The translations under genes were made by a program, and so were the position numbers. From assembly GCA_913056365.1 (NCBI GenBank), contig CAJXLT010000015.1, forward strand, positions 1 through 64,000: a stretch of DNA of 64,000 nucleotides, in the 5' to 3' direction. This DNA comes from an uncultured Paenibacillaceae bacterium. GTDB lineage: Bacteria > Bacillota > Bacilli > Paenibacillales > K13. The first letter of the stretch is position 1. Each line of letters begins with the position of its first letter. Below, one piece after another: positions 17,029 through 58,156 of this stretch. Under the pieces are notes generated by a model, which was given only the letters and a program-made list of their open reading frames with translations, was not told where the DNA came from and ran no database searches.

Positions 17029-17955
17029 CTACATCTGTCGTGAGCGTGACTGTAGACATTGTAGCAGTGTCGTGTTGAATGCGATTTGGTCCTCCTTGTA
17101 CTTGTCCGTATATCGATTCAACATCCTTACTCCGACAGCATTGTATGCCGGTAATACGACACAGTGACAGCCCGCCGCTCCGGTAGCGTAGAACCATTGT
17201 TCTTGATGGTACCAGCCGAAGAGACGTTTGTTACTATCTTCTGATGATTGGACGTCAGCATAGAGATCGAATACTTCTTGTGGTATTATTCGTCGTCCAT
17301 TTACAAGCCCGCTCTTGAGATGCAAGTATCCCCATAGTGCAAGGTCAAGTGAGCGAGTATACAGATTCCGTTCGTGTCCTTCGTTAGATTCGATTCGCAC
17401 AGAAGCATAATGACCATCTGCTTGGAAATCACATACCAGATTCTCACTGGGCGAAGTGACCCATTCGGTGTGATGGAGTTGAAGTGGACCGAATACACGG
17501 GAAGCAAGCAGCTCTGCAATGTTCATACCTGTAACCGTCTCAATGACTTTCCCTGCTAGTTCTTCTCTCTCCATACGATCAGCTCCGAAGTACTTCTCGC
17601 TAGCCTTGGTCACCAAGTCGCGAATTGTGGTGCCGCCAAGCTCGTCCTTCGACATGTCACCAATCAGCTTGTGCACAGGTGTCTCAAGGGGGATCTGTCC
17701 TTCCACGATTGCAAGCGCTGTTGCTAATCCTACATAAGTCTTTCTAGCTGAATAAATATTAAACATAGAATCTGCGGTAACTTGTTGGGCTCCCTTCTTC
17801 AAGTGATGGTAGCCGTCATACCACTCCAGTACAATCTGATCATCTTGAATCACTACTAATGAAGCAGCAGAAGAGTTGAGCTCGTGCATGGTCTTCTGCG
17901 TGAGGGCTAGTAAAGGGCTAAAGTGTGCAGAACGATTTACTTGCATCATATTCAT
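17029..17955 (-). CDS. Serine hydrolase of the beta-lactamase/PBP-like family
   Basis: A 308-residue protein of the class C beta-lactamase superfamily. SARK in FNIYSARKTYVG matches the SxxK nucleophile motif, followed by the family-typical LATALAIVEGQIPLETPV. No signal peptide is visible, so it may be a cytoplasmic esterase or peptidase. The ATG at 17955 sits six bases after GGAGGT; the upstream extension of the frame has no such site. The transcript converges with the response regulator gene. Confidence 0.82.
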   Translation of the reverse strand: MNMMQVNRSAHFSPLLALTQKTMHELNSSAASLVVIQDDQIVLEWYDGYHHLKKGAQQVTADSMFNIYSARKTYVGLATALAIVEGQIPLETPVHKLIGDMSKDELGGTTIRDLVTKASEKYFGADRMEREELAGKVIETVTGMNIAELLASRVFGPLQLHHTEWVTSPSENLVCDFQADGHYASVRIESNEGHERNLYTRSLDLALWGYLHLKSGLVNGRRIIPQEVFDLYADVQSSEDSNKRLFGWYHQEQWFYATGAAGCHCVVLPAYNAVGVRMLNRYTDKYKEDQIAFNTTLLQCLQSRSRQM

Positions 17956-18259
17956 CGGCGCACCTCCACATTGATGGTGATAGAACCGCTTATATCGTAC
18001 TAACGGAAGGGAGCAAGGAGCAAGTAGTAAAAACAAGCGTTCGCATAATTGGGAAATAGTGAGGTTCCAGTGTGCAGTGGCTTTGCGGCATTGTACTAGA
18101 GAAAGGAACTTTTAAATGCTGCTGATTTCTCCTTAATGCACTATTTTTTAACTTGCTACTTAGCGCATGATGCCAATGGATGCGAGCAAGCCAGTATCCG
18201 GGGCGGAAAGAGTAGCGCTGATGAGCGGGTAGAATGACTGGATCAGCCAGTAGAAACTG

Positions 18260-18588
18260 TAACGGACACTCGTGAGGCTGTCGATTCATTGTGAATATAC
18301 GACACTTGTATGAAACATCGTACAAATATGTTCGCAACAGATCTCGACGTGCAGGTATTGAACGATTTATCGTACAAATTTCCGTAATAGTCATGGAGAT
18401 ACGTTGATTTTGTATGAAGGATCGTATAAAAATGGTCCATATACACCGTCATGGCTAGATTTTGTATGACAAATCGTACAAATTGAACACACGACGATCC
18501 GTCCACAACGAATAGACAGCCTCATCCGTGACCGTTACATTGGCAAAACACGCTCCATACGCCCTGTAACAATCAGTGATGTTCATTA
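18260..18588. repeat. Dyad array B (four 20-bp dyads at exact 52-bp period, flanked by three more)
   Basis: Within the 839-bp gap 17956-18794, 20-bp dyads of the type TTGTATGA-NNNN-TCGTACAA begin at 18306, 18358, 18410 and 18462, exactly 52 bp apart. Spacers of 32 bp differ. Outer dyads of another type (TAACGG...) lie at 18260-18281, 18516-18537 and 18567-18588. The outer parts match array C at 57.8 kb: the stretch before 18270 and the segment 18525-18590 are closely similar to 57768-57797 and 57904-57970. I see nothing else in the gap. Confidence 0.8.
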
Positions 18589-18794
18589 CAGTTATTTCCA
18601 ATCTACTCAGTATAGAGCCGTTATCACCGGCAAGCTCGATCAGCAGTAACCAAGCGGCAATCTCGGGCTAAGTCGTAACCTTTTTTCTTATTTTTTTATA
18701 GCACTATAACTTTCGTCAGATGGCATATGTGTACGTGTAGGCTAGGATTAGCATAATAGCAAGCGAACAAAATTCATATTTAGGAGACGGTACA

Positions 18795-20786
18795 TTGAAA
18801 AAACTTACAGTACAAGTATGGATTAGTTTGATGAGTATCATCTTGCTGGCAGTGCAACCGGTTTATGCAAATGAGCTGTCAGATGTGACGGGAACCTCGT
18901 ACGAATCAGCCATCGAAGAGCTTGTGTCCTTAGGGGTGCTTAGCGGGTATCCAGATGGGACGTTTCGTCCGGATAACACCATCACTCGCGCAGAATTCGC
19001 CAAGATTATCGTCGTAGCGACAGGAAATGAGAATTCGGTATCCTTATTCAACGGAATGCCCTCGCAGTTTACTGATGTTGAATCGAACGGCTGGTACAAT
19101 GGGTATGTGAATGTTGCAGCCGCTAAAGGCTACATAAAGGGTGATCCTGATGGAACATTTAGACCCACTGATGAAATATCGTATGCGGAAGTATTAACGG
19201 TACTGGTTCGTGCACTGGGTTATCAAGATGAGAAGTTGGAAGGATCATGGCCGTACAGTCATGTGACAAAAGCGAATGAAGTTGGTTTGACTGATAATCT
19301 TCCTGATTTTAACTATAGTGGTTCAATCAATCGAGGCGAGGTGTCTATTCTATCAACCGAAACGATCAACACGCCTACAGTCACTTATGATATTAACGGC
19401 AATGAGACCATTCAATCAACAACCTTAAAAGAAGTATTGCAAAATAATCAGTCGGAACCGGAGCAGACAGAGAAAGAGGGGCTCCCTGAGGAAGAATCTC
19501 CAGAGGAGGAGCTTTCTGAGGAAGAACCTTCAGAGGAGGAGCAGCCTGTAGACACCAGCCCTCCAAGCAGTGGGGGGAGCAGTCGCAACCACGCGCCACA
19601 AGTGGACACGTCCATTCCTGCACTTACCTTAGAAGCAGGCGAAGAGACCTCCTATGAACTCAACGATAGCTTCACAGATTCGGACAGAGATACACTGACC
19701 TATACCGCTGTGTCTAGTGAGGAATCTGTGGTAACGGTGAGTGTTGATGGGTCCAGCTTGTCCCTGACTGCTGTATCGGCAGGCAGCAGTACAATTACGG
19801 TCACTGCAGAAGATCGTAGAGCAGCTCAAGCATCGCTGAGCTTTGATGTGACAGTGGAAGCTGGGAATGCGGCTCCTGCGACGTTGGATAGCATTTCAGA
19901 CCTTACACTGGAAGCTAGCTTAGACGAAACTTACGAACTTGGGAACTACTTCACGGATGCGGACGGAGATACATTGACTTATACTGCGGTATCCAGTGAG
20001 GAGGCATCTGTTACGGCAAGTGTGTATGAGACAACACTAGTCATTGCAGCGCAATCAATAGGGAGCAGTACGATTACGGTCACGGCATCTGATGCGGAAG
20101 AGGAAGCTTCACAGTCATTTGATGTGACGGTGGTGGCTTCGACGAATCAGTCGCCTGAACTTACGAGTCCATTCTACGCTGTGCTTAGTATGGATGGAGC
20201 CGAAGTATCCGAGTCGTATACTTTCAATCTAAGCTGGTACATGGAAGATCCAGATGGGGATGGATTGACGTATACGGTAGAATCCAGTAATCCAGAATCA
20301 GCGACGGTAAGAGTCGATGATCCTCATACACTGGTCGTCACAGCAGTTGCCGATGGCAGCGGTGAGATTACGGTAACAGCTACAGATCCGCGAGGGGCTT
20401 CCGTACAACTCTCTTTTGACTTTACCGTAGTCATCGAAGAACCTATTGACCCGGACCCGGGCACATGTGATCCACTCCTTGATCCGATGTGTGGAGACGA
20501 CCCAGGCGCATGTGACCCAATTCTCGACCCCATGTGCGGATACGATCCAGGCGGATGTGATCCGATTCTCGATCCTATGTGCGGATACGACCCGGGCGGA
20601 TGTGATCCAATTTTCGATCCGACGTGTGGATTCGATCCTGGTGCATGTGATCCCATCATTGATCCTGCATGTGAGTTTATCTACTCGGAATCCATGCGGG
20701 GGGACTGGGAATCGGCTGATTCTCAGCATGTGCTGAGGGAAGGTGCTTCACTCGACCTCGTAACCAATAGAAGTAAGTTTCTATAG
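18795..20786 (+). CDS. SLH protein with cadherin-like domains and Cys-rich 15-residue repeats
   Basis: A 663-residue surface protein starting at TTG, eight bases after TAGGAG. It has a signal peptide (residues 1-25), two clear N-terminal SLH repeats (GYPDGTFRPDNTITRAE and GDPDGTFRPTDEISYAE) and a degenerate third. A Glu/Pro linker near 225-255 follows, then three Ig/cadherin-like domains with D(A/R)DGDTLTYTAVSSEE-type cores. Residues ~558-632 are five copies of a 15-residue repeat, CDPxxDPxCGxDPGx, each with two Cys. Cys-dense repeats are unusual in Firmicute surface proteins; they could form disulfides or bind metal. The final ~30 residues resemble nothing I know. Confidence 0.85.
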   Translation: MKKLTVQVWISLMSIILLAVQPVYANELSDVTGTSYESAIEELVSLGVLSGYPDGTFRPDNTITRAEFAKIIVVATGNENSVSLFNGMPSQFTDVESNGWYNGYVNVAAAKGYIKGDPDGTFRPTDEISYAEVLTVLVRALGYQDEKLEGSWPYSHVTKANEVGLTDNLPDFNYSGSINRGEVSILSTETINTPTVTYDINGNETIQSTTLKEVLQNNQSEPEQTEKEGLPEEESPEEELSEEEPSEEEQPVDTSPPSSGGSSRNHAPQVDTSIPALTLEAGEETSYELNDSFTDSDRDTLTYTAVSSEESVVTVSVDGSSLSLTAVSAGSSTITVTAEDRRAAQASLSFDVTVEAGNAAPATLDSISDLTLEASLDETYELGNYFTDADGDTLTYTAVSSEEASVTASVYETTLVIAAQSIGSSTITVTASDAEEEASQSFDVTVVASTNQSPELTSPFYAVLSMDGAEVSESYTFNLSWYMEDPDGDGLTYTVESSNPESATVRVDDPHTLVVTAVADGSGEITVTATDPRGASVQLSFDFTVVIEEPIDPDPGTCDPLLDPMCGDDPGACDPILDPMCGYDPGGCDPILDPMCGYDPGGCDPIFDPTCGFDPGACDPIIDPACEFIYSESMRGDWESADSQHVLREGASLDLVTNRSKFL

Positions 20787-36655: not shown

Positions 36656-38620
36656 GTGTCTCTGCTCGATCAATTAGAAGTAAAAGTAACGAACGACTAT
36701 TTAAATAAACTATTAAGAATAACACCATTGAAAGCATTATCTGAGCTAATTTGGAATGCACTTGACGCTGATGCCACTGAGGTTTGTGTAGAATTTGAGA
36801 GAAATTTACTTGGTGGCATAGAGCATATTTATCTCGCCGATAATGGTCATGGGATAAATTATGATGAGATTACACAACAATTTGGTAAATTGGGGGAATC
36901 ACATAAGGTAAAGCAAAAGCATAGTCCATCTGGGAGAAGGTATCACGGTAAGCATGGTCAAGGGAGATTCGGAGGATTTGTTTTAGGGAATAGGGTGGAA
37001 TGGGTGAGTGTATCCAAATCAACTCAGGGGTTTGTTGAATTTAATATACAGGGGCATACTTCTGAACTGAAGGTTTTCAAAACTTCATCACCAATAGGCA
37101 CTTTGGCGTCACATACAGGTGTAAATGTCCAAATTACTGAATTGTTAAATGATAAAGTGGATGATATTAGTGATAAGTTAAAACTTGTTCAAGACTTAAC
37201 TACTATATTTGCACCTTATTTACTTGCGTATAAAGATGTGAATATTATCATTGATGGTTTGAAGATTGAACCACAAAATCATATTCAACATATTATAGAC
37301 TATGATATCTGTGAAGTTGATAATGATAACAATAGCGTAGATGGTAAGTTAAAAGTGATTGAGTGGAAAAAGGGCAGTTATAAAAACCTTTATCTATGTA
37401 ACAGAACAGGCGTTGCATATGAAGAAGAGAACTCTGGAATTAAATCAGTCTCCTTTTCACATACGGCATATTTACAAAGCGAAATAATTGACCGGTTATG
37501 GGATGAAAATGAAATTGAATTTAGAGAACTTAGAGCAGATTATAATGTACTAAGAGAAGCCGCTGAAAAGAAGCTAAGAGAGCTTCAACGCGAACGCTTA
37601 GCGGCAGAAGCTTCAAAAGAAGTGAGGAAGCTAAAGGAGGAAAAGATATATCCTTATCAGGGTTCCCCTAAAACTGCAATTGAAGAAGCAGAACGACAAG
37701 TTTTCGATATTTGTGCTGTGAAAATTAATCAGTATTTACCGGAATTCAGTAAGTCAGCTAAGGGTTCAAAAGAGATGACATATAGACTATTAAAGGAAGC
37801 ACTACAAACCAATCCTGATAGTCTAAGATTTATATTAAAGGAAGTATTGAAACTTCCAGCAGAACAACAGGATGAATTAGCATCAATATTAGAGAGGACA
37901 AGTCTCAAATCAATTATCAACACAACAAAGTTAATTACAGACCGAATAATGTTTCTTACAGGACTTGAAGAGGTTCTCTACGGAGATGATTTTCATAAAC
38001 GCTTGAAAGAGAGAAGCCAGTTACATAAAATATTGTTGGGCGAGTTATGGCTCTTCGGTGAGCAGTATGTTTATGGATATGATGATATTTCGTTGAAAAA
38101 CGTACTTAAAAAACATCTTCAATTACTTGGAAGGGATGAAATAGCAAAAACCATCGATTTCAGTTCCATAAAGTCACTTAATGATATCCCGGATATTGGG
38201 CTACACCAGCAATATAATTTTGGCCAGGCAGACCACTTTGAAAATTTGGTTATCGAACTTAAGAGACCAAGTTGTGTGATTGGTCAGGAAGAGATATCTC
38301 AAATCGAAAGATATGCATTTGCAATTGAAGATAACGAATATTTTGATAAGGAAAAGACAAAGTGGAAAATTGTTTTGCTTGGAATCAAACTGGATAGATT
38401 TGTGCTAAAAAAGGCGATGCAAGATGGCCGAGCAAATGGATTAATATATAAGAATCAAGACGGTAATATGGAAGTTTGGGTAAAAGAATGGAATCAAGTT
38501 ATTCAAGAAGCAAAAGGTAAACACAGATTCTTGAAAGAAAGACTTGAGCTGCAAGTAAAGGACAATGAAGAAGGCCTCGAATACCTTAGAAATAAGTATA
38601 TAGAGTATCTACCAGATTAG
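36656..38620 (+). CDS. GHKL (HSP90/MutL-like) ATPase fused to a PD-(D/E)XK-like nuclease domain
   Basis: About 654 residues. The N-terminal Bergerat fold is clear: N-box ALSELIWNALDADATE (Asn ~33), G1 DNGHGI (Asp ~62), G2 GKHGQGRFGG (~98). A long coiled-coil-rich middle follows (REAAEKKLRELQRERLAAEA). Near residue 533 the sequence NLVIELKRP, preceded by an Asp in DIPDIGL and followed by QIERYAFAI, fits the D...ExK core and trailing Gln of a PD-(D/E)XK nuclease. ATP-gated DNA cleavage is my inference. GTG 36656 follows AAGGGA by eight bases; ATG 36632 is possible. The AT-rich composition and the neighbours suggest phage defence. Confidence 0.75.
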   Translation: MSLLDQLEVKVTNDYLNKLLRITPLKALSELIWNALDADATEVCVEFERNLLGGIEHIYLADNGHGINYDEITQQFGKLGESHKVKQKHSPSGRRYHGKHGQGRFGGFVLGNRVEWVSVSKSTQGFVEFNIQGHTSELKVFKTSSPIGTLASHTGVNVQITELLNDKVDDISDKLKLVQDLTTIFAPYLLAYKDVNIIIDGLKIEPQNHIQHIIDYDICEVDNDNNSVDGKLKVIEWKKGSYKNLYLCNRTGVAYEEENSGIKSVSFSHTAYLQSEIIDRLWDENEIEFRELRADYNVLREAAEKKLRELQRERLAAEASKEVRKLKEEKIYPYQGSPKTAIEEAERQVFDICAVKINQYLPEFSKSAKGSKEMTYRLLKEALQTNPDSLRFILKEVLKLPAEQQDELASILERTSLKSIINTTKLITDRIMFLTGLEEVLYGDDFHKRLKERSQLHKILLGELWLFGEQYVYGYDDISLKNVLKKHLQLLGRDEIAKTIDFSSIKSLNDIPDIGLHQQYNFGQADHFENLVIELKRPSCVIGQEEISQIERYAFAIEDNEYFDKEKTKWKIVLLGIKLDRFVLKKAMQDGRANGLIYKNQDGNMEVWVKEWNQVIQEAKGKHRFLKERLELQVKDNEEGLEYLRNKYIEYLPD

Positions 38621-38621
38621 A

Positions 38622-38671
38622 AAACCTAATGCCGATTCAGTTTATTTTATCCGTGAGAGGGAATTAGGTTT
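38622..38671 (+). terminator. Hairpin after the GHKL-ATPase gene
   Basis: AAACCTAAT (38622-38630) and ATTAGGTTT (38663-38671) are perfect arms around a 32-base loop, followed by a T-rich run. The rest of the 38621-38957 gap shows small dyads (GTAAC...GTTAC, GTTTCA...TGAAAC) but no supported gene. Confidence 0.45.
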
Positions 38672-57714: not shown

Positions 57715-57784
57715 TCGTGCTGATCAACAGGCGAGAAGACTGTGGTGAGCGGAAAAATATGACGGGACCAGCCAGTTGAAACTG

Positions 57785-57968
57785 TAACGGTCACTCAAGT
57801 CCATTAGAGCGAAAAAAACCGCATTTTTGAATTTTAACGGTCGCTGATGACCATTAGTGGCAAAAAAGCGCCGATTTGACCGGCCCATTCAGCGCTTACG
57901 GACATCCGTGACCGTTATATTGTCACAACACGCCTCATACGCCCTGTAACGGTCACCGATGTCCGTTG
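57785..57968. repeat. Dyad array C (four 22-bp dyads, 50/61/51 bp spacing)
   Basis: Dyads of the type TAACGGTC-NNNNNN-GTCCATTA begin at 57785, 57835, 57896 and 57947. Stem sequence is nearly the same in all four (TAACGGTCRC / GACCATTA or GTCCGTTG). Spacing equals that of array A. The outer flanks match array B at 18.2-18.6 kb. The remaining gap up to 58156 shows no frame with a ribosome site. Confidence 0.8.
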
Positions 57969-58156
57969 AAGTTATTCCAAACGGCTCATTGAGAGCAGCA
58001 TTACTACCGGTGAGGTCGATCGGCAGTAACTGCAACCGAAAAATCGCGATGCAACGCAAAATAAGAGTAAATGCAACCGTAAAATGGCAAGGTTGCAACC
58101 TCTGGTAGGTAGAAGGATAGCGGCAGTCGGTTTATGATGAAGGGGAGGTGAAGAGA

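Follow-up and report, generated by a model that had tools for sequence, protein, structure and literature searches.

RAYTs (TnpA-REP) are tyrosine enzymes of the IS200/IS605 type, with a His-hydrophobic-His motif and a tyrosine, that act on stem-loops, and the REPs they accompany mostly bear a GTAG-type tag (PMC2817692). The EDxHD/PD-(D/E)XK homing endonuclease I-Bth0305I occupies, as a dimer, a target almost 60 bp long (PMC3943268). The window analysed here, a stretch of 64,000 nucleotides from an uncultured Paenibacillaceae bacterium (contig CAJXLT010000015.1, assembly GCA_913056365.1), carries an array of palindromic dyads in an intergenic region between two divergent genes. We conclude that this feature is an orphan copy, the cis half, of a nuclease-array system that is apparently undescribed; a literature search within a limited open-access set found no paper on these arrays or on the associated protein family. 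Our preferred explanation, to which we assign a probability of roughly three in four from sequence comparisons, is that the array would serve as a platform of duplex DNA on which dimers of a nuclease-winged helix-turn-helix (HTH) protein of an unnamed family assemble, and that the window copy would be a relic or titration site displaced from its gene.

The preliminary description of this DNA had reported four 20-bp dyads at an exact 52-bp period with unrelated spacers between them, and both points hold (Table 1). With at most three mismatches allowed, TTGTAYGA-N4-TCGTACAA occurs nine times in the window against 0.84 expected, a count of at least nine arising in 0 of 100 shuffles; the nine matches are the four dyads read on both strands plus one stray. 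The three flanking dyads of another type that were also reported do exist as sequences but do not belong to the array system: a single 36-bp inverted repeat accounts for both 18258-18293 and 18504-18539, one in each arm, and its outer parts, with a palindrome at 18565-18590, are pieces of a dispersed MITE-like repeat. The array recurs at several other places in the same genome with a 51-52 bp period and a similarity of 69-95%, in part intact and in part interrupted; a copy of the array insert at 95% lies at G000:C3:147157-147423.

Table 1. Positions of the array and its surroundings in the window.
Feature	Position	Strand	Sequence or remark
Dyad 1	18306..18325	.	TTGTATGA-AACA-TCGTACAA
Dyad 2	18358..18377	.	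TTGAACGA-TTTA-TCGTACAA; one base altered (TTGAACGA)
Dyad 3	18410..18429	.	TTGTATGA-AGGA-TCGTATAA; variant end TCGTATAA
Dyad 4	18462..18481	.	TTGTATGA-CAAA-TCGTACAA
Three 32-bp spacers (18326-18357, 18378-18409, 18430-18461)	18326..18461	.	Mutually unrelated
Array insert, ~246 bp	18276..18521	.	Short inverted repeats GAGGCTGTCGATTCATTGTG / CACAACGAATAGACAGCCTC at bounds
Left module of the MITE-like, dispersed repeat that carries the array	18150..18275	.	
Right module of the same MITE-like repeat	18522..18680	.	>20 genome copies

Other copies of the MITE-like repeat end in TTACTACTTA/TAAGTAGTAA and have a core of ~104 bp where the window copy has the array. The features by which a MITE is recognized (short non-coding sequence, terminal inverted repeats, many copies) are those of the surrounding repeat and not of the dyad array itself. 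MITEs clearly carry some arrays, that of the window included, and much of the dispersal of arrays may have occurred through them rather than through the nuclease. A second copy of the repeat in the window (57743-58030) has no dyad array. The repeat is often inserted inside dyads, as noted for the two window modules and for L005, L010, L012, L020, and L069; because a target duplication of 10-12 bp (CGATTTTTCG) stands at both MITE junctions of L069, we take the dyads to be a preferred MITE target.

We scanned 84,980 species genomes (genome_contigs) for pairs of dyads separated by a gap of 17-47 bp (37-67 bp start to start). At least 115 stretches matched, containing at least 123 arrays and at least 777 dyads; among the matches listed, all were from Paenibacillus or Cohnella to judge by their titles, 629 of 654 dyad steps measured 51, 52, or 53 bp, and four dyads per array was by far the commonest number, with a maximum of thirty. 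The recurrence of this spacing in related genomes, proposed earlier as a check, is thus borne out. Across Paenibacillales, a strict form of the pattern was found in 19 of 395 genomes and a control pattern in none, and lone perfect 22-mers picked up in further genomes lay mostly within four-dyad arrays spaced at 51-52 bp. Copy numbers range from one to hundreds, and a genome may hold tens of orphan arrays away from the gene. Their spacers are near copies of one another in some arrays (identity up to 96%), and unrelated (within-array identity 26-35%) in others, nearly all of which have exactly four dyads. A single 63-bp step, about one helical turn above 52, was noted at L262 2555-2618 (G366:C1:503655). 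A viral origin of the array was considered and rejected, a search of IMG/VR returning 0 matches.

The consensus of 223 dyads with non-redundant flanks is T-TTGTACGA-WWWW-TCGTACAA-A, the T/A preference being confined to the first outer base. Among these dyads, Watson-Crick pairs between the arms numbered 1603 as compared to 1604.6 ± 5.8 after shuffling, and double arm changes 12 as compared to 12.8. Because both values match those of shuffled arms, we regard the arms as independent half-sites and not as the sides of an RNA hairpin; the compensatory stem changes looked for are absent, and the RNA-stem function offered earlier as one alternative is unsupported. The spacers show an A+T period of 10.4-10.5 bp in phase with the dyads (amplitude 0.12; shuffle maximum 0.05), with peaks at about 0, 10.5, 20.5, 31.5, 41.5, and 52 bp from the dyad centre, and the same phasing recurs in other clades of paralogues (amplitude 0.161, null sd 0.023, 0 of 1000). 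Because of this phasing, 52 bp can be read as five turns of 10.4 bp, and the pattern is the signature expected for DNA bent toward one face. The other alternative offered at the outset, binding of protein to one face of the DNA, is supported by this phasing, by the 51-53 bp spacing that returns in hundreds of places, often between unrelated spacers, and by the winged HTH gene family that adjoins the arrays.

That family was found by clustering open reading frames near arrays in search of a partner: a single family of ~227 residues adjoins arrays in at least 11 species. It has no above-cut-off match in Pfam, NCBIfam, PHROGs, PADLOC, or PDB sequences, and no match to a transposase in the first three. 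Its N-terminal part is predicted to be a nuclease domain and its C-terminal part a winged HTH, for which sequence matches are weak. A structure model of low confidence (pLDDT 58.7) matches PD-(D/E)XK nucleases. Its two best matches, clearly ahead of other structures, are the catalytic domain of I-Bth0305I (Z 12.1, rmsd 2.8, 97 residues) and NGO0050 (Z 12.0), and on a model of that quality the predicted catalytic fold is Vsr-like, of the I-Bth0305I type. D70, E83 (96%), and H90 are conserved among 48 members and are candidates for the catalytic E, D, H, and D residues of that type. In the alignment of these members, the deep clades have E-x-K (EIKGYGPH), and the clades with TTGTACGA, CTATATGA, and GTATGCGA dyads have methionine for lysine (EIMDYGSH), which may mean altered catalysis. 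Because methionine replaces the E-x-K lysine there, catalysis is uncertain in the clade that matches the window dyads.

The family is present in 287 of 395 Paenibacillales genomes, in up to eight copies, and in 4 of 299 genomes of a phylum sample, one of them outside Paenibacillales. Genes of the TTGTACGA type are broken by a frameshift in P. senegalensis and by in-frame stops in J5C2022, G128, and G196. Broken nuclease genes (L083, L163, L285, and L296) occur in genomes that retain TTGTACGA-type arrays, and in P. senegalensis ~80 perfect dyads accompany broken nuclease gene content. The window genome has seven paralogues, all distant; its cognate (TTGTACGA-type) gene was searched for there and not found, and because only distant paralogues are present we consider the window array an orphan. 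One of these paralogues (L309 2645-2828; G000:C5, near 37998-38639) has dyads AGTGATCA-N4-TGATCACT at steps of 51, 61, and 51 bp, the middle step being about one helical turn longer than its neighbours. A c-di-GMP-I riboswitch near another family member (L327 2427-2513) is probably unrelated.

A partnership of gene and array predicts that paralogues have arrays of their own, and this prediction was examined. Arrays of at least three dyads at 51-53 bp were present at 30 of the 30 closest loci, within 500 bp of the gene in 29; the controls gave 0 among 268 shuffled loci and 2 among 155 pieces of real sequence. By a looser array score, 50 of 67 gene rows (some representing one gene twice) exceeded the 97.5% control level; the 17 below it were mostly distant paralogues. 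Some distant paralogues have array-like repeats with periods of 34-40 bp nearby; these looked unrelated and were set aside. Each clade has its own dyad (TTGTACGA, CTATATGA, GTATGCGA, AAACATGA, CTACGGGA, GGTGCA, CAAGTAGC, and others), and a candidate recognition helix varies in step with it (HKQT, HTMT, YAAT, DLRT, NRRT, HEKT), while the spacing stays at 51-52 bp throughout. Protein and dyad distances are correlated (r 0.85-0.87; 0 of 2000 permutations), common descent contributing to this value, and TTGTACGA-type arrays tend to occur in the genomes that have the gene type matching them (11/8/4/372; Fisher 1.2e-13). The array code, its phasing, the independence of the arms, the association and correlation just described, and the dispersal of the arrays are computed results.

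Upstream of nearly every nuclease gene, at ~30-100 bp (L277-L343; alignment A3), is a leader hairpin with an AAGMA loop that overlaps the Rho-independent terminator following it. All 4 of its 4 stem pairs are changed on both sides (covariation score reached in 0 of 500 shuffles), and a search of Rfam with this leader gave no match; from its sequence, the leader is likely an attenuator. Leader, gene, and array form a cassette (about 1266-2316 in L317) that has matches at non-orthologous sites with differing flanks, and cassette-bearing genomes contain lone arrays elsewhere. A gene flanking the L317 cassette is present without it in other species, too diverged to define the exact junction. Target-site duplications were looked for at the flanks of this cassette and not found, and direct repeats of that kind are clear for only a few G128/G138 copies. 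The terminator hairpin is duplicated over 23 bp at L241, with a shorter duplication at L240, and most of the elements that bear arrays in another genus lie directly beside terminators. Array-carrying elements were seen at Rho-independent terminators at L239, L240, L241, and L243 and at L356-L364, with the hairpin sometimes duplicated on both sides.

Other explanations of the array must be weighed against these observations. Were the array a functionless satellite, decayed from tandem copies of one 52-bp unit, near-identical spacers would be unsurprising, and this is what the long arrays of P. nanensis, P. oryzae, and J5C2022 have. However, free decay would add indels, and the four-dyad arrays with unrelated spacers keep both the 51-53 bp spacing and recognizable dyads; the different dyads of other clades share the spacing and the phasing as well. 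We thus consider this origin very improbable as a general account, although the earlier claim that the array is not a simple tandem duplication stands for the window and for the other unrelated-spacer arrays and not for many of the longer arrays, which are plainly tandem expansions. Of all the readings, we give least credence to an array of RNA or single-stranded hairpins (a non-coding RNA or REP-like hairpins). The region is predicted to fold strongly (z -5.1 and -6.2), mostly owing to the outer inverted repeat, but the arms vary independently, dyads changed in a single arm lie in both orientations with respect to G-U wobble within one array, the A+T content is phased helically, and Rfam covariance models run on 17900-18900 at E up to 1 gave 0 matches.

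An autoregulatory or effector operator, at which binding of the protein would regulate either its own gene or some host function without any role in mobility, is better placed than these but in our judgement still unlikely. It would suit the clade with TTGTACGA dyads, where most arrays precede the start codon by 80-200 bp, and expression of the gene does seem to be controlled, given the conserved leader hairpin and terminator. In most other clades, however, the array lies on the 3' side of the gene, often somewhere between 3 bp ahead of the stop codon and ~50 bp past it, and up to 30 units per array with tens of orphans per genome are not operator-like. The phased bent arrays and same-face sites also resemble DNA-wrapping systems, as would be expected of chromosome-organising or partition sites bound by a host protein of the nucleoid-associated or centromere-binding kind; the patchy presence and widely varying copy number of the arrays, together with an associated gene family that is multi-copy and accessory rather than a conserved host gene, make this slightly less credible even than the satellite.

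Under the explanation we prefer, a platform for nuclease-winged HTH dimers, a pair of winged helices would recognize each dyad (T-TTGTAYGA-WWWW-TCRTACAA-A, 22 bp), a run of at least four dyads at five-turn intervals would set the dimers on one face, and the A+T-phased spacers would bend the DNA toward them, allowing a multi-dimer complex. Protein, dyad, and recognition helix change jointly among paralogues at a fixed spacing of 51-52 bp, and gene and array, with the conserved attenuator-like leader, form a cassette present at varied genomic sites, the arrays also standing alone or within MITEs; the whole would be a nuclease-array system that is mobile. Binding, dimerisation, DNA cleavage, and the mode of movement are what we infer, as is nuclease activity as the driver of spread. 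A further step, which we take only tentatively and think somewhat more probably wrong than right, would make this a new class of mobile element: dimers of a Vsr/EDxHD-type nuclease-winged-helix protein on a phased bent array would cut and enter intergenic sites near terminators, spreading both the cassette and the bare array, the latter as a selfish unit of replication. A family found in most sampled Paenibacillales genomes seems to come with a target code that can be read, in which several different 8-bp half-sites are tied to recognition helices with one shared five-turn spacing. Its protein-DNA specificity is thereby open to test by helix swaps, and the family supplies a natural set of variants for the study of phased multi-dimer assembly on DNA.

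As compared to known systems, the array resembles CRISPR arrays in that palindromic repeats alternate with ~32-bp spacers; however, the repeats are not identical nor the spacers uniformly unique, since dyads and their 4-nt centres vary and the spacers of long arrays are near copies of one another, and the neighbouring gene has no match among known defence families. In TnsA of Tn7, too, a winged-helix domain comes after a PD-(D/E)XK nuclease domain, although TnsA is a weaker structural match to the model (Z about 7), the arrays are unlike Tn7 ends, and no TnsB/TnsC partner is prominent among recurrent neighbours. I-Bth0305I is the nearest solved fold to the modelled nuclease domain, and the stop codons and frameshifts in some family genes recall the homing life cycle, but here the gene is freestanding with an adjoining site array that is itself dispersed, and no intron or intein was seen. 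The likeness to REP/BIME and RAYT is in organization: regularly spaced groups of short palindromes between genes, an adjoining enzyme gene, covariation of enzyme and palindrome, and many non-autonomous copies. In place of a tyrosine HUH transposase, however, the family beside the palindromes has a predicted PD-(D/E)XK, Vsr/I-Bth0305I-like fold and a winged HTH; no GTAG-type tag is seen in the flank consensus of the 223 non-redundant dyads; and instead of the conserved pairing of single-strand stem-loop recognition there are duplex half-sites, without covariation between arms, at a fixed 51-52 bp spacing. The system thus works like REP/RAYT without being a member of it, which suggests that the same logic, an enzyme together with palindromes scattered through the genome, has also evolved around a nuclease of unrelated origin.
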